NCBI GenBank assembly: GCA_019636815.1
Contig: JAHBWT010000004.1
Location: forward strand, 1 to 64,000
Length of the DNA: 64,000 nucleotides
Direction: 5' to 3'
Source: Nitrospira sp.
GTDB taxonomy: Bacteria > Nitrospirota > Nitrospiria > Nitrospirales > Nitrospiraceae
The stretch's first letter is position 1. Every line of letters starts with the position of its first letter. A program made the position numbers and the translations under genes. The notes under the pieces were generated by a model. It did not search any database. It saw only the letters and a program-made list of their open reading frames with translations, and had not been told where the DNA came from. Of the stretch, positions 38,419 to 59,216 are shown piece after piece.

Positions 38419-40362
38419 TTATCGAGGTTTCTGAATCTTCAACGCTTTCATGCGCGACGAAAGTGTGGAGGCGTTAAGTCCGAGTAATGAGGCCGCACCC
38501 TTTTCACCGGACACTTTCCACTTGGCCGTTTCAAGAGCTCTCAGGATATTGGTTCGTTCCAGTTCTTCGAGTTCCTTGGCTGAAAGAATGGCGTCGGGAA
38601 GAGCAGCGGGTCTGCTCGCTGGAACTCCGTGAACTGAAGGCGTCTCCGGCAAAGCTCGATCAAGGTTAAGCTTGCCGGCCTCTGCCGTAATGACGGCTCG
38701 CTCGATCACATTTTGGAGCTCACGCACGTTCCCCGGCCAATGATAGGTTTGCAGCCGACGAGCATCGTTAGCTGTCAGAGGCGCAAGTGTCCGCCCCATC
38801 TTCCCGGCGAACCGTTGAGCAAACACGGAGGCAAGACGCACGACATCGTTGCCCCGATCACGTAGAGGCGGCAGGCGGATCGGAAACACATTCAGTCGGT
38901 AGTAGAGGTCCTCCCGGAATGTGCCCTGCTTGACCGCTGCGGCAAGATCCCGATTGGTCGCGGCAAGCACCCGCACGTCGACCTTCCTGGTCTTCGAACT
39001 GCCGACCGGGTCGAACTCACCCTCCTGCAGCACGCGGAGCAATTTCGCCTGCAACTCAAGCGGCAATTCGCCGATTTCGTCGAGAAAGACGGTCCCCTTG
39101 TCGGCCAGAGAAAAACGACCTTCGCGCTTCTTGGTCGCCCCGGTAAAGGCGCCGGACTCGTGGCCGAAGAATTCACTCTCGATCAATGTAGCAGGGATGG
39201 CAGCACAGTTGACAATGACCAACGGCCGTTCGCATCGTTGGCCGGCAGCATGGATCGCCCGCGCGACCAGTTCCTTGCCGGTGCCGGTTTCGCCCATGAT
39301 GAGGACCGTGGTATCGGTCTCTGCGACTTGCGCAATGTCGCGAAACACTTGCTTGAGAGTCTGATGCTCACCGATCAGGGTGCCGTCCGGGTGCAGTGCC
39401 TGGAGCTCCTCCCTTAGGAGTTCCGTTTCGACGGTGAGCGACTGAATTTTCTGCTCCGCTTCAAGGCGGTCATGCACGTTGCGGAGAATCAACGTCGTGA
39501 ATTTTTGTCGGTGCAGCGCGAAACGAGACAGCGACGCCTCAGCGGGAAACGATTCGCCATCGGCACGGCATGCAGTCAGTCCCCCTGGAATCCAGCGCGA
39601 TTGCTGCCCCTCCAGGCGTCCATCAAGCTCTGCAATCAGTGTCTCCAGACGAGTGATGTCCTCCCTGCTGACAAAGCGCGTGAAATCTTGGCCAATCATC
39701 GTATCCGCCACGCAGGAGAACGTTTTCTCCGCGGCAGGATTGACGCGGGTAATCCTAAGTTGATCGTCCAACTCGATGATTGCGTCCATGGCGCTGCCCA
39801 GGAGTCGACCGACTTTTTCCTCACGCTCACGCACCTCCGCCTCAGCCCGCAGCCGCTGCAATTCGGCCGCGGCCCTGGCGGCAAAAATCTGAAATATTGC
39901 TTGGACGCGTGGCTCCTCGGGAATGGGACGCCGATCGATCACGGCCATATGCCCGAGTATCCGGCCATCCGTATCCTGGAGAGGCACACCCATATAGCTG
40001 ACCGCCCCAGCGACCTTCAGGTCTTCATCCTGGGGATAAATTTCAAGAATCCGGTCCGGGAAATGCACCAGCTTGGCCGTATCGATCACGCGCTCACAGG
40101 GCGTTCCCGCGATGTCCACTTCATAATCCTTAACCCACTGGCCATCCATCCAGAACGCGAGGGCGCGAAGACGGCGCGTCTCGGGGAAATATTCCGTCAC
40201 CCAAGCTCCGTGTGTACCGAGAGCTTTGGTCAGGTTCTGAACCAGAGCCGAGAAAAACTGTTGCCCGGTTTCCGTTGCGGTGCCTTCGAGGATCGCCCGC
40301 AAGGCGACATCGGTTTTAAGGTCCTGAAGCGGCTTGGAAGAATCGTCTGGCACACTATCCAT
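38419..40362 (-). CDS. Sigma-54 activator with GAF and PAS domains
   Basis: A 647-residue FhlA/NorR-like regulator: GAF domain (about 20-175), PAS domain (about 185-315), AAA+ ATPase with GETGTGKE, canonical GAFTGA loop and FLDEIGELP, and a Fis-like helix-turn-helix ending LLGLNASTLSSRMKALKI. The GAF domain is the likely sensor, with one Cys (TPCERV). It probably acts on the palindrome array and sigma-54 promoter of osmC, which lies just downstream on the same strand. Ligand unknown; peroxide or electrophile sensing would fit OsmC. Confidence 0.92.
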   Translation of the reverse strand: MDSVPDDSSKPLQDLKTDVALRAILEGTATETGQQFFSALVQNLTKALGTHGAWVTEYFPETRRLRALAFWMDGQWVKDYEVDIAGTPCERVIDTAKLVHFPDRILEIYPQDEDLKVAGAVSYMGVPLQDTDGRILGHMAVIDRRPIPEEPRVQAIFQIFAARAAAELQRLRAEAEVREREEKVGRLLGSAMDAIIELDDQLRITRVNPAAEKTFSCVADTMIGQDFTRFVSREDITRLETLIAELDGRLEGQQSRWIPGGLTACRADGESFPAEASLSRFALHRQKFTTLILRNVHDRLEAEQKIQSLTVETELLREELQALHPDGTLIGEHQTLKQVFRDIAQVAETDTTVLIMGETGTGKELVARAIHAAGQRCERPLVIVNCAAIPATLIESEFFGHESGAFTGATKKREGRFSLADKGTVFLDEIGELPLELQAKLLRVLQEGEFDPVGSSKTRKVDVRVLAATNRDLAAAVKQGTFREDLYYRLNVFPIRLPPLRDRGNDVVRLASVFAQRFAGKMGRTLAPLTANDARRLQTYHWPGNVRELQNVIERAVITAEAGKLNLDRALPETPSVHGVPASRPAALPDAILSAKELEELERTNILRALETAKWKVSGEKGAASLLGLNASTLSSRMKALKIQKPR

Positions 40363-41045: not shown

Positions 41046-41149
41046 TGCTGTCCAAACAACAACGACCACGCATCTTCTGCTGCTCGGCCAGCAACGAATC
41101 GACTGAACCGTTAAAAATGACCTTGAACATAGCTGGCACAGGTTCTGCC
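41046..41149 (+). promoter_or_regulatory. Sigma-54 regulatory module A (two UAS plus -24/-12)
   Basis: UAS1 is TGCTG-N9-CAACG at 41046-41064 and UAS2 the same pattern at 41078-41096, 32 bp apart. The promoter TGGCACAGGTTCTGCC (41134-41149) has GG and GC 12 bases apart and matches the sigma-54 consensus well. A start near 41160 would drive the small genes at 41307-41773. The spacer 40937-41306 holds nothing else. Part of a four-copy family in this window. Confidence 0.75.
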
Positions 41150-41306
41150 TTTCCTGTGTCACGATGCTCGTCCTACTGGTCCTGTGTTTCGATACTGCTA
41201 AGATTCACATCAAATGTTTTCGACCAAGAGAGCTTTCGACACGGTACCATCCGTACCGGCCTGAAGATGGTGTGCGACTGAAGCTGAAGCGAAAGGCGAT
41301 CTGACA

Positions 41307-41549
41307 ATGACGAACCGGCTGCACAATAAGAAAGAAGAGGGCTTGGGTGATGATTGTGGAACAACTCGCCATTCTCCGGTCAACCCCACCGATGTCCCAC
41401 ACATCAACCACATGCTCCAGTCGGAACTCAATGCGGCGACCCCATTGGCCTCGTTGAGGGCACGGTCAGGTCCGCGCGATAGCTGGAAGGTTGAGAATCT
41501 CTCACACGAGCATGCAGCCCACAGTGAGGCGGAAAAATGGATGAGGTGA
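41307..41549 (+). CDS. Small protein of unknown function downstream of module A
   Basis: An 80-codon frame with a GAAAGG ribosome site. The product is hydrophilic, His-rich (HINHMLQSEL, SHEHAAHSEAEKW), with no signal or known domain. It overlaps the next frame by 13 bp. It lies about 150 bases beyond the predicted transcription start. Support is the context and the overlap; it could be part of a leader. Confidence 0.4.
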   Translation: MTNRLHNKKEEGLGDDCGTTRHSPVNPTDVPHINHMLQSELNAATPLASLRARSGPRDSWKVENLSHEHAAHSEAEKWMR

Positions 41550-41773
41550 CCTGCCGTCGGTTCCAGAGTCCCATGCATCCTATCGATCCGCTTGTTCCAC
41601 TCGATGTGCTACACGGCGGCAAGGATGACCGTATTCGCGCGTGGCGATGCCTTACTTGTGGCGACCTCATCGATCCGGTAATCATACAGAATCGCGTTCG
41701 ATCGAAGAACAAGCGAGCCATCAGGCGAGGCACGACTCCGCGCCAACCGGTGTTCAGACTTCCGGACTCGTAA
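41537..41773 (+). CDS. Small CxxC zinc-ribbon-like protein
   Basis: A 78-residue protein with a C-L-T-C pair in AWRCLTCGDLIDPVIIQNR, followed by basic residues. The pattern is like short one-knuckle proteins that bind zinc or RNA. A purine-rich GAGGCGG lies before the ATG. It is the last gene before module D and the probable product of the module A transcript. Confidence 0.6.
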   Translation: MDEVTCRRFQSPMHPIDPLVPLDVLHGGKDDRIRAWRCLTCGDLIDPVIIQNRVRSKNKRAIRRGTTPRQPVFRLPDS

Positions 41774-42054
41774 TGGCGAGCAAGAGAGCATCCACGAGGC
41801 AGCGGCCCGGGTAATTTCTTGGCGCTCTTCCCATCTAATCGACATCCACAATGCCGGCAACGACCATCGGGTTAGGTATCACACCATCCCTGAGACTGGT
41901 CCTCTGAAAAGTCGCGGTCTGCCTGAAGGAACGAGAAACTTCCAATCGGTTTAGAACCAGCTGATCCATCTCCTTGACATGGCACAGTCAAGCACAGCCA
42001 CAAGAAAGTATCAGCTGAACGCCGTATGGCCCTCGTTCCAGAATGAGTGGGCAC

Positions 42055-42158
42055 TGTTGCTGGAGCAACTCTCTCCCAACAGGCGATGCTGAACAGGGAG
42101 CATTGTGGGCTTGGTGGAATGACAATTCCTTCCAAAATGCAAGGGCACAATTTCTGCA
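42055..42158 (+). promoter_or_regulatory. Sigma-54 regulatory module D (two UAS plus -24/-12)
   Basis: TGTTG at 42055 and TGCTG at 42087 are 32 bp apart, and the GG of GGGCACAATTTCTGCA (42143-42158) lies 57 bp after UAS2, the same distances as module A. GG and GC are 12 apart. A transcript from about 42169 would carry the genes from 42242. The spacer 41774-42241 has no gene. Confidence 0.7.
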
Positions 42159-42241
42159 GACGCTACATGGGTATAGTAAAGGAAATCGACGACCAGAACT
42201 GAACTCAAGCCGATCACTCATCGTTGACATCGAGGTGGAAC

Positions 42242-42532
42242 ATGATTTCTCAAACCGTCGGACGTAACACCGTAGGGTCGGAGGGCATCGCGGTCGAAGC
42301 GAACGTGCTGGATATTTTAGAGCGGCACGGAGCAAAGACGCTGGATCAACTCGAAGGCGAACTGACGCACATCGGAAGCGCGCAACTGCTCTTCGCGATT
42401 GATCGCCTCAGTCGTTCAGGAAGGATCGCGATAGGCCCGCCCAGGAAAGGAGACTATCTCGTCTGGGTGTTACCCGAATCATTCGCCCGCATGGAGCAGC
42501 GTGAGCACGCTGCGGGGAATACCGGAGCCTAA
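42242..42532 (+). CDS. Winged-helix-like small protein
   Basis: A 96-residue protein whose middle reads like a winged helix: VLDILERHGAKTLDQLEGEL, then AQLLFAIDRLSRSGRIAIG, with a wing (GPPRKGDYLVWVL). It could bind DNA or act as an adaptor. GAGGTGG precedes the ATG at 42242. It is the first gene of the module D operon, five bases before the next. Confidence 0.6.
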   Translation: MISQTVGRNTVGSEGIAVEANVLDILERHGAKTLDQLEGELTHIGSAQLLFAIDRLSRSGRIAIGPPRKGDYLVWVLPESFARMEQREHAAGNTGA

Positions 42533-42534
42533 GA

Positions 42535-43029
42535 GTGATGGATTACAAAAGTGGGAAGATCGTGCGTCGAATCGGACAAAAGGCGCTGACGTTTCGGTTT
42601 CCGGCCGTTGTCGACGGCGAAGTGTCCTACATCGGTCCTAAAGAGTTTCTAGGGCAGTGGCTCGTCCTGAGCTTTGTGCCGGCTCTCGGGGAGTCCGAGA
42701 TCATGCTCTGGAATCGCCATGGACAGGAGTTGGCTGAGCTTGGGGTGGCGCTGCTCCTAGTTCCACCCGAGGCGCAGACGCTCCACGGAAAACAGTCTTT
42801 TTGCACCCAACATATGCATTTCGTGGTTGCGGGAGACCCAATGAGACGCTTGCAGCGTCTCTATGGCGGTCCGACCACGCAGTCGCCTGGGCGAGGCCGG
42901 ACGTTTCTGATCGATCCGGACGGGCTGCTCAGGTTCCATCTTGTGCATAGCCTCACTGAGCGAGGGATGGGAGTTCTCACTGAACTCCTGCAGGCCTATC
43001 AAGACGCGGAGATTGCGGCAGTGGTGTAA
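42535..43029 (+). CDS. Peroxiredoxin-like protein lacking the peroxidatic Cys
   Basis: A 164-residue thioredoxin-fold protein of AhpC/TSA type: LGQWLVLSFVPA gives the strand before the active site, and GRTFLIDPDGLLRF and the FVVAGD segment match the family. The peroxidatic Cys position (PxxxTxxC) is occupied by PALGESEI, so no catalytic Cys is there; the only Cys is Cys90. It starts 3 bp after the previous gene, with GTG/ATG alternatives at 42535 and 42538. It may be a redox chaperone or a ligand-binding relic. Confidence 0.75.
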   Translation: MMDYKSGKIVRRIGQKALTFRFPAVVDGEVSYIGPKEFLGQWLVLSFVPALGESEIMLWNRHGQELAELGVALLLVPPEAQTLHGKQSFCTQHMHFVVAGDPMRRLQRLYGGPTTQSPGRGRTFLIDPDGLLRFHLVHSLTERGMGVLTELLQAYQDAEIAAVV

Positions 43030-43158
43030 ACGCCAGGCCTTCGCGTCTCTTTCCCCTCATTGGCTGACTGGGCGGTGAAAGGTCAGTGCGGCCGTTTCAC
43101 GGCGGTGTATCGGCTTCTTGTGTTTTGGATGGGCTGGACCACACCAAAGGAGAATGCC

Positions 43159-44490
43159 ATGCGGAAACGCACGGGCAGGCAGACGTTTATGCTGATCACG
43201 ACCGCGATGGCCTTGCACGCTGCGCCAGCATTGGCAACGGATGGGCACATCTTCCATGGCGTCGGAGCCATCAACCAGTCCATGGGAGGAGCCGGCATCG
43301 CGACGTCGATCGACGCGATCGGCTCGAACCACAATAATGTCTCGTCCATCTCGTTCCTTGAGAGAAGCTCGATTGAGTTCGGCGCGGAACTCTTTCTTCC
43401 GAATCGCAGTACGGCCGGGTTTATCAGCGGCGGTCCGTCCGGGACGGTGGACAGCAACACCCGGGAAGCCATTCTTCCCAATTTTGGTCTCGTCTACAAA
43501 ACGAAGGGGCCTTGGACCTTCGGATTGACGGGGGTGGGCATCGCCGGGTTTGGAGTGGACTATCCGGCGAACAATCCGAACTCGAATGGCATATTCAATC
43601 CTCTTGCCACTCCCCAGTCCGCCGGCGGGTTCGGAGCCATCTACTCGAATTACCAGGTGCTGCAGGTCACGCCATCAGTAGCATACCAGGTGACGCCGAA
43701 GTTATCCCTCGGCGTAGGGTTCAACATCAATTGGGCTTCACTGGCCGCCAATCCGTGGCCGGCCACGGTGCCGAATGCATCCGGATTTCCTACCGGCGCC
43801 CATGGCGCATCGGCGTGGGGATGGGGCTTCACCGTCGGCGCAACCTACAAGCCGCTCAATAACTTGGCTCTCGGTTTGGTGTTCAAGAGCCCACAGTGGT
43901 TCGGGAGTTTCTCGTGGAATTCCCAATACCCCGATGGAACACCGACGAGTTTTGAGTATCGATTGGACTATCCCTTGATCGTCGGCGGAGGCGTGAGTTA
44001 CCAGCCGATCGAGCCGCTGCTGCTTGCGCTTGACGTCAAGTGGATCAATTACAGCAATACCAAGGGATTTGAGCGAGAGAACTGGCTTGCGAGCCCGGCG
44101 GGGCCCGGCCTGGCATCGGTGCAAGGATTCGGCTGGGAAAATATCTGGACCGTCTCACTCGGGGCTCAGTACAAGGTGACGCCCGTGTTCGCCGTGAGGG
44201 CCGGCTATAACTATGGCGGAAATCCCATTCCTTCCGAACAGCAATTCTTCAATGTGTTTGCTCCGGCCATTGTCCAGCACCACTTCACCGTCGGCGCGGG
44301 CTATGAGATCACCGATCACCTTGGTGTGAACCTGTCTTACTATCACGGCTTCTCGTCGGAGCAGTCGGGGCCTTTCATCAGCAACGGCGCTCCAGGCTTT
44401 CCTTCGATCAACCAACCGGTTCCCGGAACATTGGTGACCAACCGGTTGAGTGAAAATTCCATTGCCGCACAAGTCGCCTACAAGTTTTGA
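43159..44490 (+). CDS. FadL/OmpP1-family outer-membrane transporter
   Basis: A 443-residue outer-membrane beta-barrel for hydrophobic substrates. Signal peptide MLITTAMALHAAPALA, then NQSMGGAGIATSIDAIGSNHNN, the FadL N-terminal hatch pattern, alternating beta strands and a C-terminal aromatic end (IAAQVAYKF). The ATG at 43159 has AAAGGAG upstream; the frame open from 43060 is leader. In this sulfur-linked setting it might import hydrophobic organosulfur compounds, but that is speculation. Confidence 0.85.
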   Translation: MRKRTGRQTFMLITTAMALHAAPALATDGHIFHGVGAINQSMGGAGIATSIDAIGSNHNNVSSISFLERSSIEFGAELFLPNRSTAGFISGGPSGTVDSNTREAILPNFGLVYKTKGPWTFGLTGVGIAGFGVDYPANNPNSNGIFNPLATPQSAGGFGAIYSNYQVLQVTPSVAYQVTPKLSLGVGFNINWASLAANPWPATVPNASGFPTGAHGASAWGWGFTVGATYKPLNNLALGLVFKSPQWFGSFSWNSQYPDGTPTSFEYRLDYPLIVGGGVSYQPIEPLLLALDVKWINYSNTKGFERENWLASPAGPGLASVQGFGWENIWTVSLGAQYKVTPVFAVRAGYNYGGNPIPSEQQFFNVFAPAIVQHHFTVGAGYEITDHLGVNLSYYHGFSSEQSGPFISNGAPGFPSINQPVPGTLVTNRLSENSIAAQVAYKF

Positions 44491-44667
44491 CCAGGCGAGC
44501 GTCGCATGCTCGACCACATAATGACGACTCATCAATGCCTGCGGTAACGCCGACAGAGCCGGTTCAGATCAAACCTACTGGTCTTGTACGGCCCGCCCAT
44601 CAGCGCGACGTGGTCGTGAGCGAGCATCCATAAGGATGCAGCGTGACTCCGCATGCTGAAAACCATG

Positions 44668-44782
44668 TGCTGCCTCGCAAGCAGACGATCAACACGAATT
44701 GCTGAGTTTTCAGCAATCGGAACTGGCGCAATGGTAGGGATGGCTGAAACGACTTCAAACTGTCCGTGGCATCGATTCTGCT
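44668..44782 (+). promoter_or_regulatory. Sigma-54 regulatory module C (two UAS plus -24/-12)
   Basis: TGCTG-N9-CAGAC at 44668 and TGCTG-N9-CAATC at 44700, again 32 bp apart. The promoter TGGCATCGATTCTGCT (44767-44782) lies 68 bp after UAS2, which is the 57-bp spacing of A and D plus about one helical turn. It precedes the DsrE2-TusA operon by about 60 bp. The 350-bp spacer 44491-44841 shows no other gene. Confidence 0.72.
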
Positions 44783-44841
44783 TTTTCCGATTTATCTGGA
44801 TGAGACGGATCCCTGTGAGCCTAGTGATAAGGAGGAACCCG

Positions 44842-44910
44842 ATGAAACCACTGCGACTGATTCAATTCGACACCGACGGCATCCAGGAAAACGACGGAGC
44901 GACAGCATGA
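44842..44910 (+). CDS. 22-residue leader peptide coupled to dsrE2
   Basis: AAGGAGG at 44829-44835 is followed by ATG at 44842 and a 22-codon frame (MKPLRLIQFD start) ending TGA at 44910. The stop overlaps the dsrE2 ATG in ATGA, the mark of translational coupling. The peptide is acidic and soluble. It is the first frame of the module C transcript and may be a regulatory or carrier peptide. Confidence 0.6.
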   Translation: MKPLRLIQFDTDGIQENDGATA

Positions 44911-45434
44911 CGACCGAGGTCGCGCCATCGATCACCCTCGCCCAGCTTCATGAGTCCAAGCCAGACAGGGTCACGATCGTCGTCTTGAGCGGCGACCTGG
45001 ACCGGGTGATGGCGTCCTTTATCATCGCGACGGGCGCGGCGGCGATGGGGATGCCGGTGACGATGTTCTTCACATTTTGGGGCCTGAACGCCATACGCCG
45101 AAAGGGCGCGACCAGTTCGGCGCGTGACTGGCTGCGCCGCATGTTCGGCCTGTTGAATAAGGGAGGAGCGGGGCAACTGCCGTTGTCGCGGTTCCATTTC
45201 GGCGGGATCGGCACCAAGATGATGCACCGCGTGATGAAGCAGAACCGGATGCCCGGTGTTCCTGAATTACTGCATACTGCACAGGATCTCGGCGTACAGT
45301 TCATCGCCTGTACGACGACGATGGGGTTGATGGGGATCACCAAAGACACGTTGATCGACGGCGTGGATCAGTTGGCCGGCGTCAGTACCTATCTCGCAGA
45401 GGCCAAACAAGGTCAGGTGAACCTGTTCATATAA
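44907..45434 (+). CDS. DsrE2-like sulfurtransferase family protein
   Basis: A 175-residue DsrE/DsrF/DrsH-like protein. It begins with a Rossmann-like fold (VTIVVLSGDLDRVMASFIIATGAAAMGMPVTMFFTFWGL) and has a Cys near the C-terminus (GVQFIACTTTMGLMGI) in the DsrE2 active-site position. DsrE2 proteins pass persulfide sulfur between TusA and Hdr- or Dsr-type complexes. A tusA gene follows directly. No hdr or dsrAB genes are in the window. Confidence 0.85.
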   Translation: MTTEVAPSITLAQLHESKPDRVTIVVLSGDLDRVMASFIIATGAAAMGMPVTMFFTFWGLNAIRRKGATSSARDWLRRMFGLLNKGGAGQLPLSRFHFGGIGTKMMHRVMKQNRMPGVPELLHTAQDLGVQFIACTTTMGLMGITKDTLIDGVDQLAGVSTYLAEAKQGQVNLFI

Positions 45435-45449
45435 GGAAAGGTCGAGGTT

Positions 45450-45498
45450 AAGGCTCAGGCTGAGTCACGATCGATTTCTTGGCCTTAGCCTCAGCCTT
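45450..45498 (+). other. Intercistronic hairpin between dsrE2 and tusA
   Basis: AAGGCTCAGGCTGAG (45450-45464) pairs with CTTAGCCTCAGCCTT (45484-45498) over 15 positions with one mismatch and one wobble, loop of 19. It ends four bases before the GGAG of tusA and could set the ratio of the two products. Confidence 0.55.
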
Positions 45499-45511
45499 CA
45501 TGGAGTTGTTA

Positions 45512-45754
45512 ATGGCGCACGCTGACGTAAAGCTCGACGCTCTCGGCCTCTTCTGTCCGATGCCGATCATTCTGACCGCGAAGAAGATCAAAGAGCTGGC
45601 TGTAGGGCAGGTTCTGGAAGTGATCTCCGATGACGAAGGGATCAAGAAAGATATGCCTGCCTGGTGCCAGACGACGGAACATGAGTTGGTGGGGTTTGAA
45701 GAAGAACTCATCGCGAGCAAGCAGGCGTACAAGGCGTTTGTCAGGAAAAAGTAA
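45512..45754 (+). CDS. tusA: TusA-family sulfur carrier
   Basis: An 80-residue sulfur carrier. The active-site motif is LDALGLFCPMPIILTAKKI, with the CPxP Cys that carries persulfide, and the later MPAWCQTTEHEL is typical. The GGAG at 45502-45505 sets the start at 45512. It probably works with DsrE2. Its target is not in the window, but the cysteine desulfurase of the opposite operon could be the donor. Confidence 0.93.
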   Translation: MAHADVKLDALGLFCPMPIILTAKKIKELAVGQVLEVISDDEGIKKDMPAWCQTTEHELVGFEEELIASKQAYKAFVRKK

Positions 45755-45826
45755 GTGACTCCGCGGAACGCGGGAATGTGGTCGCATTGCGGGATTCACT
45801 CAAGTATTAACCAAGAGGAGCGTTTG

Positions 45827-47431
45827 ATGAAATGGCCACGATGGGTCGGCTCGCCGTTGCGGGCGGTTCATGTCGGGTTTGGGGTCGTTTTGTTTGGTCT
45901 CGGCATCTGGTCGGCATGTTCGTCGAATAACACGGATGTCTTCCCGCCTGCACCTGCTACAGACTATGAAGTCTGGGTCAGCGATCAAGCTCACACCCAA
46001 GGCATTACCGCAGGGACACCCACCGGCACGCACGGCGGGCACATATTGGTGTACGACGGCGTCGATTTGGAGAAAACACCCCCCGTCGATAACCCTCGGA
46101 TTGTGGACGCGACGGCCGACCTTTTCCCAACCGCCGATGTGACGACCGGCGGTCACGTCAGCCGCATCCATGGAATCCTTCCCAGCCCGGATCACGTGTA
46201 CATGGCGCTGAACTTCGTGGCCAGCGGCCATTTAGGCATCGTACACGGACAGACGAAGGCGCCGGTGTGCCTCTTCCGGACGACCGAGACCTCGACTGGC
46301 CGGCAAAACCACATGAGCTTCTGGACACCGGACGGGCGGTATCTCATCGTCGCCAATCAGAACGGGCGCATTGCCGAACGCGTCGATATCGTCAGAAATG
46401 CGCAGGGGCAGGTGGTTGGTTTCGTCTTCAACGCCGCCGCCAGTCTCGATTTGGTCGGAGGAGCGGGGCGAATCCTCACGCAGCCCGTGGCAGTGGATGT
46501 CAATCCGGCGGACGAAATCTCCTGCACGGTGAGCGGGACGGTGCCGGACAATCAGCCCACGACTACGCCCACCGGGGCGCTGAAACAGGCGGCGGGCATC
46601 CGTCCGACCAATAATTTGATCTGCCCGATCGCCGCCAGCAACAATCGGCACGCCTTCGCAACCCTCGGCGGAGGCGGGATGTTCGTCCTGGACGTCACCG
46701 CGACTCCGATCGCGATCGTCGCCGAGTACGATCTATCCGTCGTCCGTGCGGCCGGGTGCGGAGGCGTGCAATCGTCCGAGTACATACACCTCAATACCGG
46801 GACATCCGCGATGGGTGTCTCTGAATTTTCGATCTATCGTTTTACTCTGAATTATCCACAGGCTCCCGCGTTCAACCCGCCGAATCAGCCGCCTCCCGTG
46901 ACGGTGTGGGAAGACCCGGACAACGGAAAAGTCGCCGGCGTGGATCTGCCGGCGGGGACGAACCGTGACGCGCACGCCATGGTGGTGGTTCGGAACAGAC
47001 TGCCGGGCACGGCTAGGTATCTCCATCAGTTCGATCGCGTGCGGAACAACGTCGAGGTGTTCCGGTTGGCTCCCCCCTGGAACACGCTCGACGGTCAATA
47101 CGAAGGCTCCTACGACCTCACCACCACCGGCGTGTGCGGGCAGACCCTCGGAGCGCCCATGTCCAACGATCCGACGCCCGATTTGGGGGAAGTGTCGTTC
47201 GGCGGCAATCCGCAAGGCGATCGCATCTATGTCGCCCTTCGCGGTCCGTTTCCGGTGACCGTCGCCCACGCCGCGGACGGCAGTTGCCCCGGCCTCGGCA
47301 TCATCACACTCTCCGCCGACCGACGGTCGGGAGAGCTGACGACGGTGTTCGACACGACGGTGCTGAATAACGGCGGCACGGAAAATAGGAGCGATCCGCA
47401 CGCGGCGATCGTCCGCGCGAAGACATCCTAG
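45827..47431 (+). CDS. Exported beta-propeller-like protein, possible lipoprotein
   Basis: A 534-residue protein with an N-terminal hydrophobic segment ending GLGIWSACSSNN, a non-ideal lipobox, so it is exported and perhaps anchored. The mature part has repeated HGxHVSRIHG, PDGRYLIVANQNGR and FGGNPQGDRIYVAL segments, as in beta-propellers of the YncE type. Several His and Cys are spaced like metal ligands (NHMSFW, GCGGVQ). AGAGGAG precedes the ATG at 45827. Role unknown; it belongs to the module C operon. Confidence 0.7.
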   Translation: MKWPRWVGSPLRAVHVGFGVVLFGLGIWSACSSNNTDVFPPAPATDYEVWVSDQAHTQGITAGTPTGTHGGHILVYDGVDLEKTPPVDNPRIVDATADLFPTADVTTGGHVSRIHGILPSPDHVYMALNFVASGHLGIVHGQTKAPVCLFRTTETSTGRQNHMSFWTPDGRYLIVANQNGRIAERVDIVRNAQGQVVGFVFNAAASLDLVGGAGRILTQPVAVDVNPADEISCTVSGTVPDNQPTTTPTGALKQAAGIRPTNNLICPIAASNNRHAFATLGGGGMFVLDVTATPIAIVAEYDLSVVRAAGCGGVQSSEYIHLNTGTSAMGVSEFSIYRFTLNYPQAPAFNPPNQPPPVTVWEDPDNGKVAGVDLPAGTNRDAHAMVVVRNRLPGTARYLHQFDRVRNNVEVFRLAPPWNTLDGQYEGSYDLTTTGVCGQTLGAPMSNDPTPDLGEVSFGGNPQGDRIYVALRGPFPVTVAHAADGSCPGLGIITLSADRRSGELTTVFDTTVLNNGGTENRSDPHAAIVRAKTS

Positions 47432-47455
47432 GAGCGAAACAAGGGAGGTGCAATT

Positions 47456-47662
47456 ATGGCTCCGCTCAATGATGACGATGTTCCTCCCATTCATCATGTC
47501 ATTTTCCCAATGACACATGCCCTTCGCGCGTCGCGTCGCTCGCCGAGCTGGAAGCTGTTTCAAGGCTGGCGATCGCAGAACAAAAACCGACAGGCAGGAT
47601 TGCTGGGCAATGGTACAAGGAAGGCACAAGCATTGTGGCGCTGTTCGAGGACAGGTGGATAG
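47456..47662 (+). CDS. Short ORF with strong ribosome site, function unknown
   Basis: A 68-codon frame with AAGGGAGGTG before its ATG. The product is basic and starts MAPLNDDDVPPIHHVIFP. Its stop is immediately followed by the MgtC-like TTG start. Composition is not convincing in the second half, so it may be only a coupling frame. Confidence 0.35.
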   Translation: MAPLNDDDVPPIHHVIFPMTHALRASRRSPSWKLFQGWRSQNKNRQAGLLGNGTRKAQALWRCSRTGG

Positions 47663-48358
47663 TTGAACGTGACCGCGGACGACGTGGAAATGGTGTTACG
47701 TTTGGTCACGGGGGTAATTGCAGGGGCCCTGATCGGATACGAGCGGTCGTATCACGGGAGGCCGGCAGGCTTCCGTACACATGCACTGGTTTGTACCGCA
47801 TCCAGTTTGCTGATGCTGGTTACCGTCTATGAGGCCCATTGGGTTCGTGTGACCGCAGAGCTCGTCAGACTGGATCCGACTAGAATGGCTCAAGGAATAA
47901 TGACTGGAATAGGCTTCTTGGGCGCGGGCGTCATCATGAAGGATGGGCCCTCGGTCCGGGGACTCACGACGGCTGCGTCAATCTGGATAACGGCCGCCAT
48001 AGGCATTCTGGCCGGAATCGGATTCTACTTTCCGCTCGTCGTATCGGTCTTGCTCACGATCGGCATACTCTCGATGCTTCGCTGGATTGAGGCACGCATG
48101 CCCACTCAGACCTATTACCACTTCGAAGTTCGGTTCGCGCGAGCTTCCAACATGACCGAAAGCACACTGCGCACATTGATAGAAAGCCATAGGTTCACCA
48201 TCGCGAACTTCAGCTATCATCTCGACTCGGAAGGGCGCATGCGTCGTCACAGCATGGTCTTGCGCACCATTGACCGCTCGAGCGCATCGCGGCTGTCAGA
48301 AAAACTCGAGGCAACTGAATCCGTGCATGAGTTTCGCATTGCTCCGACAGGAGATTGA
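47663..48358 (+). CDS. MgtC/SapB-family membrane protein
   Basis: A 231-residue protein with four or five N-terminal membrane segments: RLVTGVIAGALIGYERSYHGRPAGFRTHALVC carries the family motif, then GFLGAGVIMKDGPSVRGLTTAASIW. The C-terminal 80 residues are cytosolic and ACT-like. MgtC proteins affect F-ATPase and magnesium homeostasis in pathogens; other members are of unknown role. The start is TTG at 47663 with AGGTGG upstream, or GTG two codons later. Confidence 0.88.
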   Translation: MNVTADDVEMVLRLVTGVIAGALIGYERSYHGRPAGFRTHALVCTASSLLMLVTVYEAHWVRVTAELVRLDPTRMAQGIMTGIGFLGAGVIMKDGPSVRGLTTAASIWITAAIGILAGIGFYFPLVVSVLLTIGILSMLRWIEARMPTQTYYHFEVRFARASNMTESTLRTLIESHRFTIANFSYHLDSEGRMRRHSMVLRTIDRSSASRLSEKLEATESVHEFRIAPTGD

Positions 48359-48407
48359 TGAATGTAGGTCATTTTATCTATCGTTATCGCACACTAAAAG
48401 CACGCCC

Positions 48408-48510
48408 TGCTGATCAGTCAACAGCATCCACGCATCTTCTGCTGGCCGATCAACAGCAAATCGACTAAACGGTAAGAAACAAACCGGATACGCCAGGCAT
48501 AACTTCTGCA
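48408..48510 (+). promoter_or_regulatory. Sigma-54 regulatory module B (two UAS plus -24/-12)
   Basis: Two perfect-arm palindromes TGCTG-N9-CAGCA at 48408-48426 and 48440-48458, 32 bp apart. The promoter AGGCATAACTTCTGCA (48495-48510) has GG 56 bp after the UAS2 start. Shares CACGCATCTTCTGCTG exactly with module A, which suggests duplication. It points to the gene at 48686. The spacer 48359-48685 shows nothing else. Confidence 0.75.
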
Positions 48511-48685: not shown

Positions 48686-49702
48686 ATGATGAATGCTTAT
48701 GATCGGAACAAATGGCCGGTGTTGGCTCTGCGCCATTTCAAGAAAGAATGGATGAGCGAAGAAGTGGAAAGAGAATCCTTCAGGGCCATGGCATTTGCGC
48801 GAATACAAACTCTTGTGAACGGCTTCGCTCAAATCGGATATCACCTCGCGGTGCTGTTCCTGAGTGCCGCCATCGCTCTCTCCCTGCCGGCGATAGCAGA
48901 CAGATTTCTCGTGTACTGGGCGAGGATCGACGATGACAGGACATCTCTGTTGATGTTGGAAGCGATCGTGGCAAGCCTCTTGATCCTCTTCGCGAACGTG
49001 ATCCGCCTCAGCGTTCGTGACAAAGCACTGGCCAAAATGGCGATCGGCGCCGGCCTGGTGTCGTATTATCCGAGTCATGAGCCCAGTGCGCGGAGACGGA
49101 TCAAGCAACTCAAAGAGAAGCAAGGGACGGGGCGGACCGTCATGGCGATCGGATCGAGCGGGTATGGAACGTTGACCGATCAGGTCGGAGATTTGGCTTC
49201 CGTCCTGGAGCGGTGCACGGGAGCCAAGATCTTACTGGTCAATCCATACAGCCCGGAAGCGCGGGCCCGAATTTGCGCGATCGCCGATCCGGACTACTCT
49301 GTGGAGTTATTTCAAGAGGAGGTTCGGCGCAGCATCGAACTACTCAAACGGCTGCGCGCGATGGGAAAATCTGTCAGGCTCAAATTTTACTCCGAACCCC
49401 CGCTCGTCAAACTGGTCATCCTGGGAGACTATCTTTGGTTACAACATTACCATCCGGACTTGAATGTCCGCACGATGCCTGAATATGTGTTCAGGCACAA
49501 CCCAAAGGATCACGGCTTGTACACGTTCTATTATCACTACTTCGTCCAACGCTGGAGCAGTTGCGACGTAGGAGATTATGATTTCGACAGAGAGGAGTTG
49601 GTCTATCGAGATCCCCACGACAGGTCAGACCGGAGAGTTCCATTCGGCCAGGAGTCAGAAGCATACCCTGGCACGATATCCGGATCCCTGCCTGCACGCT
49701 GA
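48686..49702 (+). CDS. Membrane protein with PLD-like cytosolic domain, unknown function
   Basis: A 338-residue protein with two membrane segments (LAVLFLSAAIALSLPAIA and MLEAIVASLLILFANVI) and a C-terminal soluble domain of about 200 residues (GYGTLTDQVGDL, ILLVNPYSPEARARI, LKFYSEPPLVKLVILGDYLWLQHYHPD). The soluble part resembles phospholipase-D-like folds without HKD residues. No family was named. It is the only gene beyond module B, so it probably responds to the same activator. Confidence 0.7.
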   Translation: MMNAYDRNKWPVLALRHFKKEWMSEEVERESFRAMAFARIQTLVNGFAQIGYHLAVLFLSAAIALSLPAIADRFLVYWARIDDDRTSLLMLEAIVASLLILFANVIRLSVRDKALAKMAIGAGLVSYYPSHEPSARRRIKQLKEKQGTGRTVMAIGSSGYGTLTDQVGDLASVLERCTGAKILLVNPYSPEARARICAIADPDYSVELFQEEVRRSIELLKRLRAMGKSVRLKFYSEPPLVKLVILGDYLWLQHYHPDLNVRTMPEYVFRHNPKDHGLYTFYYHYFVQRWSSCDVGDYDFDREELVYRDPHDRSDRRVPFGQESEAYPGTISGSLPAR

Positions 49703-49827: not shown

Positions 49828-50910
49828 TTATTTCGTTCCTTGAGAACCGAGCATCCCGTACCGAATCAAGCGATCGCGAACCACATTTCGACTGATGCCT
49901 AGAAGCCGAGCGGTGCGAAGCTGATTCTGCTCGCAATAGACGTACGCCATACGAATGACTGTCTCATCAATCAGTCGATACAGATCCGGTGTCGTTGTCC
50001 TGTTCGCAAAAAGATGAGTCAGCGCCGTTTCGAGCGGCGGAAGCAGCGTCGCCGACGCCACTCTCGGTTCCTGTGGAGAAGACACGGGCAGGCGCAGGTC
50101 GTCAGGGCGTATGCTCGTTCCCGAGCAGACGAGGAGTGCATGGTGGATGGAATTTTCAAGCTCACGAATGTTGCCCGGCCATGGATACGAGAGAAGAGCC
50201 TGGACTGTTTCAGGAACAAGCTCGACTCGTTCGTAGCCGAGCCGCGCCCCGTAGAGATTCAAAAAATGCCGAACCAGCGGCATGATATCCCCTGGACGTT
50301 CCCGCAACGGAGGAAGGTCAACGGATACCACCTTCAGCCGGTAATAGAGGTCTCCTCGAAACCGGCCGGCTGTGACGGCCTCATCAAGCTTCACATTTGT
50401 CGCGGCGATCAATCGCGCATCAATCGGAATAGGGCGGCGCGAACCGACCCGTACGACTTCCCGCTCCTGGATCACCCGAAGCAATTTCGCCTGCAAGAGA
50501 AGGGGAAGATCCCCGATCTCATCCAAAAATAACGATCCTCCCCGGGCGGTCTCAAACCATCCTGCTTTATCGCTGACGGCCCCCGTGAACGAACCACGCT
50601 CATGGCCGAATAATTCGCTTTCCATGAGTGATTCGTTTATGGCGGCGCAATTGAACGCCACGAACGGACCCGATCGACGATCGCTCAATTCATGAATATG
50701 GCGGGCGATCAACTCCTTGCCGGTACCGGTCTCACCGATGATGAGTACCGTCGCGTCGCTGGGCGCAATATGTCGGACTTCACCCAGAAGAGACCTGGAA
50801 GCCTGGTCCTCGAATACCAAACAAGTGGCACGAGCGGAAAGGTCCAGCGCATGCGAGTTGGGAGCCATGCCGATCTGAATCGAAGAATCATATGTGATGG
50901 AGCTGCGCAT
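49828..50910 (-). CDS. Sensorless sigma-54 activator, SfnR-like
   Basis: A 360-residue AAA+ activator with no N-terminal sensor: the first 35 residues are non-conserved, then GETGTGKE, a contact loop GSFTGA, FLDEIGDLP, and a C-terminal Fis helix-turn-helix (LRTARLLGISRNVVRDRLI). Its size and layout match SfnR of pseudomonads, which is made under sulfur starvation. It faces module B and starts the gap next to the sulfur operon, so it is the best candidate for the TGCTG-N9-CAGCA sites. Activity would be controlled by its amount. Confidence 0.88.
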   Translation of the reverse strand: MRSSITYDSSIQIGMAPNSHALDLSARATCLVFEDQASRSLLGEVRHIAPSDATVLIIGETGTGKELIARHIHELSDRRSGPFVAFNCAAINESLMESELFGHERGSFTGAVSDKAGWFETARGGSLFLDEIGDLPLLLQAKLLRVIQEREVVRVGSRRPIPIDARLIAATNVKLDEAVTAGRFRGDLYYRLKVVSVDLPPLRERPGDIMPLVRHFLNLYGARLGYERVELVPETVQALLSYPWPGNIRELENSIHHALLVCSGTSIRPDDLRLPVSSPQEPRVASATLLPPLETALTHLFANRTTTPDLYRLIDETVIRMAYVYCEQNQLRTARLLGISRNVVRDRLIRYGMLGSQGTK

Positions 50911-50928: not shown

Positions 50929-51906
50929 CTAAATGGTCCATTGCCCGATTCGTTGCTCGAGCGCCTTTGGCTGGATGGTGGCCGACGTGCGCATTTGCGC
51001 CTGGACGACATCGCTGCCGGCCGGCACGCTCTGCGTCAGCCACACGTTGCCGCCGATGATCGACCCTCGGCCGATCGTGATGCGCCCCAAGATCGTGGCT
51101 CCGGCATAGACGACGACATCGTCCTCCACGATCGGATGGCGGGGTTCTCCTTTGACGAGCACGCCGTGCTCGCCTTCCGTGAAGCGCTTGGCGCCGAGAG
51201 TGACGGCCTGATAGAGACGGACGCGCCGGCCGATGACGGTCGTTTCACCGATGACGACGCCGGTCCCATGATCGATGAAAAAATGGCTGCCGATCTCGGC
51301 GGCCGGATGAATATCAATGCCGGTCGACGAATGAGCGATGTCCGAGATCAAGCGAGCGACCAACAGCGCGCCCAGGCCATACAAGGCGTGGGCGATGCGA
51401 TAATAGATGACGGCGGTCATGCCGGGATAACAGAGCAGAATCTCCGACGCGCTGGTGGCCGCCGGATCGCCTTGGTAGGCGGCCTGTAAGTCGGTGAAGA
51501 GCAGCGCCCGTATGGCCGGGAGCTGGCTGGCGAAGGCGCCGGTGATTTCCCCGGCCTTGCGGTCGAGGGTCGGCTGCCCCGGTTGGTCATCGGGCTGGGA
51601 GGCGAACAGCAATCCCCTGCGAACTTGATCCTGCAAGAGAGGCAACGTTTGGTTCAAGGTATGGCCGACGAAATAGTCGATGTTCGTCTCATTCAAATCA
51701 GCCCGGCCATAGTGCGTCGGAAACAAGGCGGCGCACAGGCCCTCCACGATGCCGAGCAATCTGTTCCGAGAGGGCAACTCGTGAATCCGTCCGTGATGTC
51801 TGATGTTGTGGGTCAGCTCGCGCGAGGCACGCAGCTCCGTCACAATCTGATCGAGACTCCAGGTGGACGCCGCGGTTTCCTGCTGCCGCATCGTGTCGTC
51901 TTCCAT
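50929..51906 (-). CDS. cysE: Serine O-acetyltransferase, SrpH/EpsC-type
   Basis: Makes O-acetylserine from serine and acetyl-CoA, the acceptor for sulfide. The 325-residue protein has a long N-terminal helical part and a left-handed beta-helix of hexapeptide repeats (HSSTGIDIHPAAEIGSHFFIDHGTGVVIGETTVIG) with the catalytic His. The cargo gene lies 5 bp upstream, as in cyanobacterial srp clusters where srpH neighbours srpI. Last gene of the operon. Confidence 0.92.
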   Translation of the reverse strand: MEDDTMRQQETAASTWSLDQIVTELRASRELTHNIRHHGRIHELPSRNRLLGIVEGLCAALFPTHYGRADLNETNIDYFVGHTLNQTLPLLQDQVRRGLLFASQPDDQPGQPTLDRKAGEITGAFASQLPAIRALLFTDLQAAYQGDPAATSASEILLCYPGMTAVIYYRIAHALYGLGALLVARLISDIAHSSTGIDIHPAAEIGSHFFIDHGTGVVIGETTVIGRRVRLYQAVTLGAKRFTEGEHGVLVKGEPRHPIVEDDVVVYAGATILGRITIGRGSIIGGNVWLTQSVPAGSDVVQAQMRTSATIQPKALEQRIGQWTI

Positions 51907-51911
51907 GGCGG

Positions 51912-53678
51912 TCAGCGGCGCCGGAGGTCGTGCAGTGCCTGCACGAGAATATCGATTTCGTCGCGCGTGTTGTAGAACGCCAGCGACGGGCGGACGGTCC
52001 CTTCCAGCCCGAATCGACGCACAGTGGGCTGAGCGCAGTGGTGCCCGGCCCGCACCGCGATGCCGTGCCGATCCAAATGCCTGGCGATCTGCTCGTTCGG
52101 CATGCCGTCCATGACGAACGACAGCACACTGGCCTTGACGGCGGCCGTCCCGATGGGACGGAGCCCGCGAACGGATGAGAGCGCCTGTGTCGCGTACTCC
52201 AACAACTCGTGTTCATACGCGGCGATGACGGGCATGCCTATCCGGGTGAGATAGTCGATCGCTGCGCCGAGGCCCACCACTCCGGCGATATCCGGAGTGC
52301 CCGCCTCGAATTTTTGCGGAGCTCCCTGGTACGTCGTCTTCTCGAACGTCACGTCTTTGATCATGTTGCCGCCCCCTTGATAGGGCGGCATCTCTTCCAG
52401 CAAGGCGGCTTTGCCGTACAACACGCCGATGCCGGTCGGTCCGAATATTTTGTGTCCTGAAAACACGAAGAAGTCGCAGCCCATGGCCTGCACGTTGATC
52501 GGGAGATGCGGCGCGGACTGTGCGCCGTCCACCAGGACCGGTATCCCTTGCGCATGGGCCATCCCAATGATCGCTTCGACCGGATTGATCGTCCCCAAGG
52601 CGTTCGAGACCTGCGTCACCGCCACCAGCTTGGTGCGAGGGCCGAGCAGCGGAGCAAACTGTTCGAGGATCAATTCGCCGGCGTCGTTGATCGGCGCGAC
52701 CCGCAGCAAGGCCCCGGTCTGCTCGGCCAGGATCTGCCAGGGCACGATGTTGGCATGATGTTCCATCACGGTCAGGAGGATTTCGTCGCCTCGGCCGATA
52801 TGGGCACGCCCATAAGTCTGGGCCACCAGATTGACGGCCTCCGTGGTGCCGCGGACAAAGACGATTTCCTTGGTGTCGGCCGCGCCGATGAACTGCCGCA
52901 CTTTTTCACGCCCGCCCTCGTAGAGATCCGTTGCGCGGGCCGCCAAGGCGTGAGCAGCGCGGTGGATGTTGGAATTATCGCGGCCGTAGAAACGAGACGT
53001 GGCGTCGATGACGCCCCGCGGCTTCTGCGTGGTGGCGGCGTTGTCGAACCAGATGAGCGGGCGACCGTGGACTCGTTGGTGAAGCACGGGAAAGTCCCGC
53101 CGGATCGCGTCCACCTCGACTATCGACAATGTGGGACCGGCAGCGGGCTCTCGTGCTGCCGAGCCGGCGCGTGACCCGGCTTCACGTAGAAAGTAGAACG
53201 CCGGAGCGGCGTCGACCGTATCGGCATACACCTCCCGCGCGCTGAAGCTGCCGTTGCAACGAGGTTCCCCGAATGGGTACACCTCGTCGGAGTCGGTCCT
53301 GTGCTCGCCGGAGCCAAGCTCTTTTCGTGCCGGTGACAGATCAGGAGGTTCTGTTTGCCCGGCATGGACCGGCGGATGAGTCGTTGTGGTCGCCAAGGGA
53401 TAGCCGCCCGCTAGGCCCGGATTGTCCGGCCTGTCTATCGTCGGGACAGTGACGAATGAAGCCGGGAATGTCGAGGGCGTTCCGGCAATGCCCGGCACGC
53501 CTCCCGGTATTCCACCGAGGGCAGTCGGCGTAACCGGCAACACAGACGACGCTGCGGAAATCAGTGATGATGATTGGGCAGTGATGGCGGAATCCCTGTA
53601 CAACTCATTCGCTAATTGCGTGATCAACACCGTGTCGAACGAATCGGTGTCATGGTTGATCGGGTTGTGTGTGGTCAT
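51912..53678 (-). CDS. Encapsulin-cargo-type cysteine desulfurase
   Basis: A 588-residue type II cysteine desulfurase (SufS-like) with a 185-residue N-terminal extension. The enzyme part starts near residue 185 with DAIRRDFPVLHQ and has the PLP Lys410 (FVFSGHKIFG), His in HHANIVPW and catalytic Cys548 (GHHCAQP). The extension is Pro/Ala/Ser/Gly-rich and looks disordered, with two short hydrophobic motifs, VLITQLANELYRD (17-29) and PAFYFLREA (159-167). In SrpI encapsulins such extensions target the desulfurase into the shell. The start at 53678 lies 4 bp after the encapsulin stop. Confidence 0.92.
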   Translation of the reverse strand: MTTHNPINHDTDSFDTVLITQLANELYRDSAITAQSSSLISAASSVLPVTPTALGGIPGGVPGIAGTPSTFPASFVTVPTIDRPDNPGLAGGYPLATTTTHPPVHAGQTEPPDLSPARKELGSGEHRTDSDEVYPFGEPRCNGSFSAREVYADTVDAAPAFYFLREAGSRAGSAAREPAAGPTLSIVEVDAIRRDFPVLHQRVHGRPLIWFDNAATTQKPRGVIDATSRFYGRDNSNIHRAAHALAARATDLYEGGREKVRQFIGAADTKEIVFVRGTTEAVNLVAQTYGRAHIGRGDEILLTVMEHHANIVPWQILAEQTGALLRVAPINDAGELILEQFAPLLGPRTKLVAVTQVSNALGTINPVEAIIGMAHAQGIPVLVDGAQSAPHLPINVQAMGCDFFVFSGHKIFGPTGIGVLYGKAALLEEMPPYQGGGNMIKDVTFEKTTYQGAPQKFEAGTPDIAGVVGLGAAIDYLTRIGMPVIAAYEHELLEYATQALSSVRGLRPIGTAAVKASVLSFVMDGMPNEQIARHLDRHGIAVRAGHHCAQPTVRRFGLEGTVRPSLAFYNTRDEIDILVQALHDLRRR

Positions 53679-53682
53679 CGTG

Positions 53683-54645
53683 TCAGCCTTTCGGATAGAC
53701 ATATTCGTGATAGAACTTGGTCGAGACATTATCGAGACGGGCGATCGCATCATCCGTCAGCACCGCCGTGGAGAAATAGCGTGTGATGAGATGCGAGGCG
53801 ATCCCGTGATCGTTGGTGCCCATGTAGCGGACGGAGAGGCCGGGCTCAAGCTCGCCGGCGACCCCGGCCTTCTGCAGACCGACGACGCCTTGCTGCGATT
53901 CACCCACGCGCAGAAGTAGGAGACTCGTCTTGCCCTCCTTGTCGATCGCCAATTTATTGGTTGGAACCAATGGAATGCCTCGCCAGGTAAGGAACGGCGA
54001 GCCGAAGAGGCTCACGGTGGGAGGCGGCACCCCTCTCCTGGTCGCTTCACGCCCGAATGCCGCGATCGCTTTGGGATGACCGAGAAAGAAAGCCGGCTTC
54101 TTCCAGACCAGCGTCAACAGCTCGTCCAGATCATCCGGCGTGGGAGTCCCCTTGCGGGTCTCGATACGCTGCTGAGCAACCACCTCTTTCAAGAGTCCGA
54201 ATTCCGGGTGGTTCAGCAGTTCCCACTCCTCGCGCTCCTTCACCGCTTCAACCGTCAGACGCACCTGTTCGCGCAGCTGGTCGATACGATTACTGTACAG
54301 GTCGGTCACCCGCGTGTGCGTATGAATGACTGTTTGGATGGTACTCAGATGGTATTCACGCGGATGCAATTCATAATCGACGAACGTAGCCGGCAGTTGC
54401 GGCTCACCGGTATCGACCGTCAACAGTTCCACCTTCACGTCGCCGAATTCGTTGGCCGGTTTGCCTTTCGCGGCTTTGGCGACCCGATTGAGGCGGTACA
54501 CGCCGCCATCGACGTCGACCCACGGCAACAACTTGTGGAGCCACCGCGGAGTGATTTCAGTCATCTGCACCGCGGTGACGGTGGCGGTGGCGAGGTTGCG
54601 CGCCGCTTGGGCGCTCAGGCTGGTTCTCGTGTCGTTCTGACTCAT
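53683..54645 (-). CDS. srpI: Family 2A encapsulin shell protein, SrpI-like
   Basis: A 320-residue HK97-fold shell protein. Diagnostic segments are LSAQAARNLATATVTAVQMTEI and TPRWLHKLLPWVDVDGGVYRLNR at the N-terminus, a long helix (TDLYSNRIDQLREQVRLTVEAVKEREEWELL) and SRIRYMGTND-like C-terminal strands (SVRYMGTNDHGIAS). Family 2A shells package cysteine desulfurases, and that gene follows at 4 bp. The start at 54645 has AAAGGAC upstream. A serine acetyltransferase and cysteine synthase flank the pair, as in srpGHI. Confidence 0.93.
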   Translation of the reverse strand: MSQNDTRTSLSAQAARNLATATVTAVQMTEITPRWLHKLLPWVDVDGGVYRLNRVAKAAKGKPANEFGDVKVELLTVDTGEPQLPATFVDYELHPREYHLSTIQTVIHTHTRVTDLYSNRIDQLREQVRLTVEAVKEREEWELLNHPEFGLLKEVVAQQRIETRKGTPTPDDLDELLTLVWKKPAFFLGHPKAIAAFGREATRRGVPPPTVSLFGSPFLTWRGIPLVPTNKLAIDKEGKTSLLLLRVGESQQGVVGLQKAGVAGELEPGLSVRYMGTNDHGIASHLITRYFSTAVLTDDAIARLDNVSTKFYHEYVYPKG

Positions 54646-54667
54646 TGCGTTGTCCTTTCTGCTGTGA

Positions 54668-54684: not shown

Positions 54685-54736
54685 AGGTGTAATGGATCTG
54701 TTACCTGTCGTCTCAAAGGCTCGTGGATATGCGGTC

Positions 54737-59206: not shown

Positions 59207-59216
59207 AGGCGTTTCC

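Follow-up and report, generated by a model that had tools for sequence, protein, structure and literature searches.

Enhancers of the NifA and NtrC type consist of activator palindromes located upstream of a phased −24/−12 promoter. In Pseudomonas, SfnR2 (which we take to be PA2359) and SfnR reportedly regulate dimethyl sulfide and dimethyl sulfone utilisation, and a CysB-SfnR hierarchy has reportedly been described. The SrpI shell of Synechococcus elongatus is up-regulated by sulfate starvation (PMC8049743), and the PEP-CTERM box of the PrsK/PrsR system combines an activator site, a ∼60 bp spacer and a −24/−12 promoter in front of surface-protein genes (PMC1569441). The DNA analyzed here, referred to as the window, is a 64,000-nucleotide stretch of Nitrospira sp. 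(assembly GCA_019636815.1, contig JAHBWT010000004.1, positions 1 to 64,000 of the forward strand) that carries four copies of a module made of two palindromes and a −24/−12 promoter. Judged by sequence comparison, these modules are very probably the enhancer-plus-promoter units of one sulfur-limitation regulon, of which the putative SfnR-type activator would be a sigma-54 enhancer-binding protein (EBP) encoded in the same window, designated EBP2. The module, its geometry and conservation, its co-occurrence with EBP2, and the clade and operon context of EBP2 were all computed directly.

Geometry and conservation of the modules

Each module contains two 16 bp palindromes of the form TGYTG-N6-CARCA, with a start-to-start offset of exactly 32 bp, followed by a promoter of the form GGCAY-N3-TTCTGC, which corresponds to GG-N10-GC. 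All elements are on the plus strand. In module 1, upstream activator palindromes a and b are at 41046..41061 (TGCTGTCCAAACAACA) and 41078..41093 (TGCTGCTCGGCCAGCA), and the promoter is at 41134..41149 (TGGCACAGGTTCTGCC). The corresponding elements are at 42055..42070 (TGTTGCTGGAGCAACT), 42087..42102 (TGCTGAACAGGGAGCA) and 42143..42158 (GGGCACAATTTCTGCA) in module 2; at 44668..44683 (TGCTGCCTCGCAAGCA), 44700..44715 (TGCTGAGTTTTCAGCA) and 44767..44782 (TGGCATCGATTCTGCT) in module 3; and at 48408..48423 (TGCTGATCAGTCAACA), 48440..48455 (TGCTGGCCGATCAACA) and 48495..48510 (AGGCATAACTTCTGCA) in module 4. The distance from the start of the second site to the promoter GG, termed the promoter offset below, is 57, 57, 68 and 56 bp for modules 1 to 4. 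When pairs of sites with up to two mismatches were sought in the window, 32 was the only offset among 16 to 60 that gave more than one pair (four pairs), and 300 shuffles of the window gave no pair at this offset.

An earlier note on this DNA had described a four-copy module with site pairs at 41046/41078, 42055/42087, 44668/44700 and 48408/48440, a 32 bp spacing and promoter distances of 57, 57, 68 and 56 bp. All four copies were recovered at these positions with identical measurements, and the four promoters read letter for letter as quoted there. The sites do start with TGYTG, as the note had put it, and are better described as the full palindrome. Its placing of the modules in an 8-kb region stands for these four; the design is not confined to that region, three more copies being present on contigs C38 (two) and C121.

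These copies were found by scanning the whole genome (4.01 Mb in 143 contigs, a 95%-complete assembly) with the pair pattern, allowing up to two mismatches, which gave seven places vs none for a reversed-pattern control. Because the assembly is 95% complete, further modules may be missing from it. Modules C38a and C38b (minus strand of contig C38, at 4001 and 2694) have their own −24/−12 promoters at offsets of 55 and 57, as does the module at 10220 on the minus strand of C121 at an offset of 87. A GG-N10-GC promoter is thereby present in 4 of 4 window modules and 7 of 7 genome modules. The promoter subtype TGGCAY-N3-TTCTGC occurs six times genome-wide, four of these inside modules; the other two matches (on C52 and C77) lack a pair of palindromes ahead of them and appear to be fortuitous occurrences in coding sequence. 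Note that a genome scan with the single palindrome was uninformative, giving 30 perfect sites vs 20 in the control.

For conservation, we used a comparison set of 99 genomes of the same order, in which G000 is the source genome. Module 2 precedes homologs of the gene at 42224 and of the peroxiredoxin-like gene in G005 and G006 (promoter offset 57), and precedes the 42224 homolog in G057 (offset 55). Module 3 precedes DsrE2-TusA genes in G005 and G006 at an offset of 69, and module 4 precedes the homolog of the gene at 48686 in the same two genomes at offsets of 56 and 57. In alignments of orthologous modules the palindrome arms and promoter hexamers are kept, and most intervening bases have changed. 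A third spacing class, with promoter offsets of 85 to 90, is found in all four genomes that carry EBP2, where it lies ahead of two small conserved proteins encoded as a pair; in G057 and G023 this class also precedes a different small protein. The classes 55–57, 68–69 and 85–90 differ by approximately one and three DNA turns. A Rayleigh test of the Nitrospira spacings gave p ∼1e-5 for a period near 10.25–10.5 bp, a value that is too small since orthologous modules are not independent.

Modules 1, 4, C38a and C38b have ∼110 bp of extended homology in common and, because of it, may have arisen by promoter duplication and not independently. A conserved ATCGAYTAAAGCGT between sites and promoter in these four does not fit the IHF consensus. 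The homology also speaks for a reading in which module likeness reflects shared descent only, that is, a recently duplicated promoter cassette without a common regulator. We consider that reading very unlikely: modules 2, 3 and C121 are alike only in their sites, offset and promoter, between orthologous modules sequence change is seen in the intervening bases, with sites and promoter retained, and the geometry recurs in unrelated Proteobacteria.

The predicted activator and its family

EBP2 (49828..50910, minus strand) is an AAA+ sigma-54 activator with an SfnR-type helix-turn-helix (HTH). Its sigma-54 interaction domain matches Sigma54_activat at 3.7e-69, and since the AAA+ domain starts at approximately residue 28–32 of 360, there is no N-terminal receiver or sensor domain. 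Orthologs of EBP2 (74–85% identity, plus the window's own) are present in G000, G005, G006 and G057 only, of the 99 genomes. Module matches number 7, 3, 5 and 5 in these four genomes, respectively, and 0 to 2 in every other genome scanned; an overlapping double is counted in the G057 figure, and one of the G006 matches is probably due to chance. Most of the matches in genomes without EBP2 lack the shape of a module. If genomes are assumed to be independent, the probability of an exact 4-in-99 agreement is 1 in 3.8 million, which kinship would make an overstatement. The check for conservation in related genomes that the earlier note proposed was thus run: the paired sites are conserved, and relatives bearing EBP2 hold three to five module matches.

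The genome encodes approximately 29 EBPs, two of which, EBP1 and EBP2, are near modules in the window. EBP1 (38419..40362, minus strand; GAF-PAS-AAA-HTH_8) is the sigma-54 activator nearest module 1, at ∼700 bp, and as a complete EBP that includes GAF and PAS domains it is a candidate for an activator of which the modules would be targets. Its close orthologs are found in approximately 25 relatives, many of them without any module (G009, G010, G011, G015, G017 and others), whereas G057, with five module matches, has no EBP1 ortholog and G006 has only a 45% paralog. Its HTH is also of a different type. EBP1 is ruled out as the activator by this distribution, and we give that assignment practically no credence. 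Because of the exact co-occurrence of EBP2 with multi-module genomes, the syntenic modules in three relatives and the exclusion of EBP1, EBP2 is favoured as the best candidate for the module activator, its binding being predicted. The protein at 49828–50910, which the earlier note had put forward for footprinting, is therefore the best supported by co-occurrence in 4 of 99 genomes. Its proposal of one activator is upheld, but “unknown” no longer describes that protein, as it falls in the SfnR-type clade.

This placement was obtained from a tree of 66 EBPs, with EBPs sampled from this genome and its relatives as outsiders. One clade of 37 rows (support 100/100) contains EBP2, its Nitrospira orthologs, EBPs of genomes with modules, and EBPs encoded beside msuE-msuD-msuC (P. 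aeruginosa) and sfnG-msuE (B. glumae). The Nitrospira rows are sister to Methylococcales (97/95). Most of the clade has a recognition region of the form NQ[LVI]..[TA]A..L.[IL]SRN..R..L, and among the EBPs sampled from this genome only EBP2 has the pattern NQ..TA..L.ISRN..R. The P. aeruginosa EBP beside msuE-msuD-msuC and a second EBP shares 58.5% identity with EBP2 over 96%; the P. aeruginosa protein following tssA fits Sfa3/PA2359 (361 aa; PMC3804575). Like SfnR and SfnR2 of Pseudomonas, EBP2 is sensorless and in the same clade, and the genomes of relatives pair the same site with sulfonate and sulfone genes. Unlike them, it appears to target no monooxygenase genes but those for DsrE2-TusA, a peroxiredoxin-like protein, FadL, MgtC and small proteins; its own gene sits in a sulfate-transport/encapsulin operon. 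No monooxygenase gene was found behind this genome's seven modules, the targets being other sulfur and surface genes. For this reason EBP2 is classed, by clade, as an SfnR-type regulator and not as SfnR itself.

The same geometry was also found outside Nitrospira. Scanning 84,980 genomes (257 Gb) for exact pairs gave at least 118 stretches vs ∼4 expected at even base composition. Eighty loci were readable among the matches listed, and among these listed matches many readable loci are from Pseudomonas, Methylococcales, Methylophilus, Zoogloea and Enterobacterales; perfect TGGCAY-N6-TGC promoters occur at 0.48 per 100 bp per reading at 50–129 bp vs 0.0098 at 130–499 bp (∼49-fold); promoter distances bunch at 57, 69, 80, 90 and 102 (Rayleigh p ∼1e-15, best near 11.5 bp); and sulfur genes are the largest target-gene groups in Proteobacteria. 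First genes behind these pairs include those for SsuD (616 bits, cut-off 518), MsuE (225 bits, cut-off 212) and an SfnB-like protein (392 bits, under the cut-off of 431). A full-length EBP2-type protein, aligned through the HTH at 51–64% identity, is present in 28 of 36 genomes tested, the loci having been hand-picked from the scan list with odd ones included as internal controls. Of the eight genomes without such a protein, seven have pairs but lack a fitting promoter, and in one (L117) a promoter is present (Fisher 1e-6), and 28 of 29 genomes with promoter-linked pairs hold a full-length EBP2 relative. At the plasmid loci of P. aeruginosa and B. glumae, single sites or other offsets are found in place of the 32-bp pair. 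Searching the literature for the motif returned only irrelevant hits.

Two further features were observed in these genomes. A half-site is present at the center of the 48-bp pair (CARCA at 23–27 or TGYTG at 22–26; loci L086–L165) in 31 of 62 promoter-linked pairs, which are not independent because close relatives recur, and in 0 of 18 others. In several Enterobacterales, Azospirillum and Sorangium, an SfnR-type activator and a C-terminal NMT1/SsuA-like substrate-binding domain form one frame (in L239, Sigma54_activat at 37–192 and NMT1 at 409–586; also L222, L238 and L240–L243), and this domain could serve the activator as its own sensor of sulfonate or sulfate. Compared with NifA/NtrC-type enhancers, activator palindromes stand upstream of a phased −24/−12 promoter in both, but here the offset of the pair is fixed at 32 bp, the promoter is very close (56–90 bp) and half of the promoter-linked pairs elsewhere have the central half-site.

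The layout of the PEP-CTERM box, with its ∼60 bp spacer, is likewise similar to that of the modules, and a PrsR ortholog is encoded in this genome (G000:C56:88542-89876; TIGR02915, 574 bits, over the cut-off). That the modules are PEP-CTERM boxes of a PrsK/PrsR system would also suit the VPLPA-CTERM-like protein encoded behind module C38b (L013:1693-2487, minus strand). Motif 1 of that box, however, is 17 nt long and ends with TTTACA (PMC1569441). TGYTG-N6-CARCA is unlike it and has no such ending, and the identity is rejected on motif. The PrsR system further differs in having a receiver domain and a kinase; modules track SfnR-type EBPs across genomes, and their largest target groups in Proteobacteria are sulfur genes. 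We regard a PrsR assignment as highly improbable. In the tree, the PrsR ortholog is a long-branched row and the nearest neighbour of the SfnR-type clade.

Module-linked genes and the encapsulin operon

All genes assigned to the four window modules are on the plus strand. Module 1 is followed by two overlapping small open reading frames (41307..41773; 80 aa, and 78 aa with CxxC) with no Pfam match. Behind module 2, the first gene encodes a small protein (42224..42532) conserved there in three relatives; the earlier note had read it as a winged HTH protein, and no Pfam match was found. It is followed by genes for an AhpC/TSA-family peroxiredoxin-like protein (42535..43029) and a FadL/TodX-family outer membrane protein (43159..44490). 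Module 3 precedes genes for a DsrE2-type sulfur carrier (44907..45434; Pfam DrsE_2, 2.9e-51; start set by alignment with relatives), a TusA sulfurtransferase (45512..45754), a propeller-like protein (45827..47431) with a weak Cytochrom_D1 match below cut-off, and an MgtC-family membrane protein (47663..48358). The product of the gene behind module 4 (48686..49702), read earlier as a membrane protein, has no Pfam match and is conserved there in G005 and G006.

The conserved small-protein pair behind the modules with offsets of 85–90 consists of a protein of ∼75 aa (MPDYTKRWIELRRRE...) and one of 54–69 aa with two CxxC motifs, and was seen in all four EBP2 genomes (L014:10220 region; L068:10654, minus strand; L070:11469, minus strand; L074:4732; L075:4240). 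VPLPA/PEP-CTERM-like sorting tails were also observed in proteins behind Methylococcales modules (L093; L149). Because sorting-tail proteins follow modules both here and in Methylococcales, the regulon may have included surface proteins from early on.

The EBP2 gene lies at the end of a minus-strand cluster, from 62.2 to 49.8 kb, for sulfate uptake, cysteine synthesis, encapsulin and EpsC. In the direction of transcription, the cluster encodes two sulfate-binding proteins (60083..62163, at 61144-62163 and 60083-61147; TIGR00971), the sulfate permeases CysT (59329..60086; TIGR02139) and CysW (58316..59332; TIGR02140), a sulfate ABC transporter ATPase of CysA type (57233..58300; TIGR00968), cysteine synthase A (55584..56516; TIGR01139, 438 bits), a ThiF/MoeB-family adenylyltransferase (54737..55570), a family 2A encapsulin shell protein (SrpI-like; 53683..54756; NF041162, 467 bits, cut-off 380), a family 2A encapsulin-type cargo cysteine desulfurase of the SufS family with a long N-terminal extension (51912..53753; NF041166, 793 bits, just under the cut-off of 800; SufS, 551 bits) and an EpsC/CysE serine O-acetyltransferase (50929..51906). 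A weak DsrE-like match, 29% identical to DsrE2, was noted between the cysK and cysA genes (56744-56950, minus strand).

The gene order srpI-desulfurase-epsC-EBP2 is kept in 4 of 4 EBP2 genomes, and among the 99 genomes a family 2A shell scores above cut-off in exactly G000, G005, G006 and G057. G001, a relative lacking EBP2, has an encapsulin match that stays under the family 2A cut-off (G001:C87:3278-4624) and is possibly a family 2B shell. As in the SrpI system of S. elongatus, the shell, cargo desulfurase and EpsC genes are in one operon here. The Nitrospira operon differs from other family 2A operons in ending in an SfnR-type EBP: for four plasmid-borne family 2A operons from other bacteria, no annotated EBP was found within 9 kb.

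Proposed regulation and its meaning

Several points weigh against a single sulfur-limitation regulon under EBP2. The four EBP2 genomes may be related, in which case their agreement does not amount to four separate events. The window shows no module in front of the encapsulin operon, and the 700 bp ahead of srpI are coding sequence. A VPLPA-CTERM protein, a PhoB-like regulator and a PstS-like protein (C38) are among the regulon members without a plain link to sulfur. Finally, G023, a complete genome without an EBP2 ortholog, has one well-formed module (L077:4735) with a perfect promoter at an offset of 87, which could be either a relict or served by a second activator. Together with the ∼29 EBP genes of the source genome, the G023 module would suit another EBP of the same recognition that acts with EBP2, or in its place in some genomes. 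We judge this unlikely, as the multi-module genomes match EBP2 exactly and the recognition pattern of EBP2 is not shared by other sampled EBPs here.

For a regulon under EBP2, we infer the following course. Sulfur shortage would raise expression of the sulfate-uptake, cysteine-synthesis and encapsulin cluster, and EBP2 would accumulate with it; because it lacks a sensor domain, its activity is probably set by its amount. EBP2 would then bind the paired TGYTG-N6-CARCA palindromes, with dimers seated on one face of the DNA three helical turns apart, and the assembled AAA+ ring would contact sigma-54 RNA polymerase at the −24/−12 promoter, phased at approximately 56, 68 or 87 bp. The satellite genes thus switched on would be those for DsrE2-TusA (sulfane-sulfur transfer), the peroxiredoxin-like protein, FadL, MgtC and small proteins, and their promoters would respond after the sulfur-acquisition operon of EBP2 is induced. 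Such a cascade would resemble the CysB-SfnR hierarchy that has reportedly been described.

The locus is most likely a known kind of system, an SfnR-type sulfur-limitation regulon, that appears to be wired here to an encapsulin, sulfate uptake and DsrE2-TusA carriers. A broader proposal, for which we see the chances as even, is that a single enhancer grammar (a 32-bp pair, often a central half-site and turn-quantised promoter distances) would serve the whole clade of sensorless sulfur-limitation activators, which reaches across at least Nitrospirota and Pseudomonadota as phyla, and that in Nitrospira the activator may have been recruited into an operon for an encapsulated desulfurase, co-switching the nanocompartment, sulfane-sulfur carriers and surface proteins.

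These results supply a testable activator and site for the Nitrospira family 2A encapsulin neighbourhood, for which none was found described in the literature searched, and they name DsrE2, TusA and the peroxiredoxin-like protein as likely partners of the encapsulated desulfurase. The spacings also offer a natural data set on the tolerance of a sigma-54 activator for whole-turn, not half-turn, changes in promoter distance. With the motif and spacing rule, SfnR-type regulons can be recognised in the sequences of many Proteobacteria, including methanotroph members that have probably gone unnoticed.

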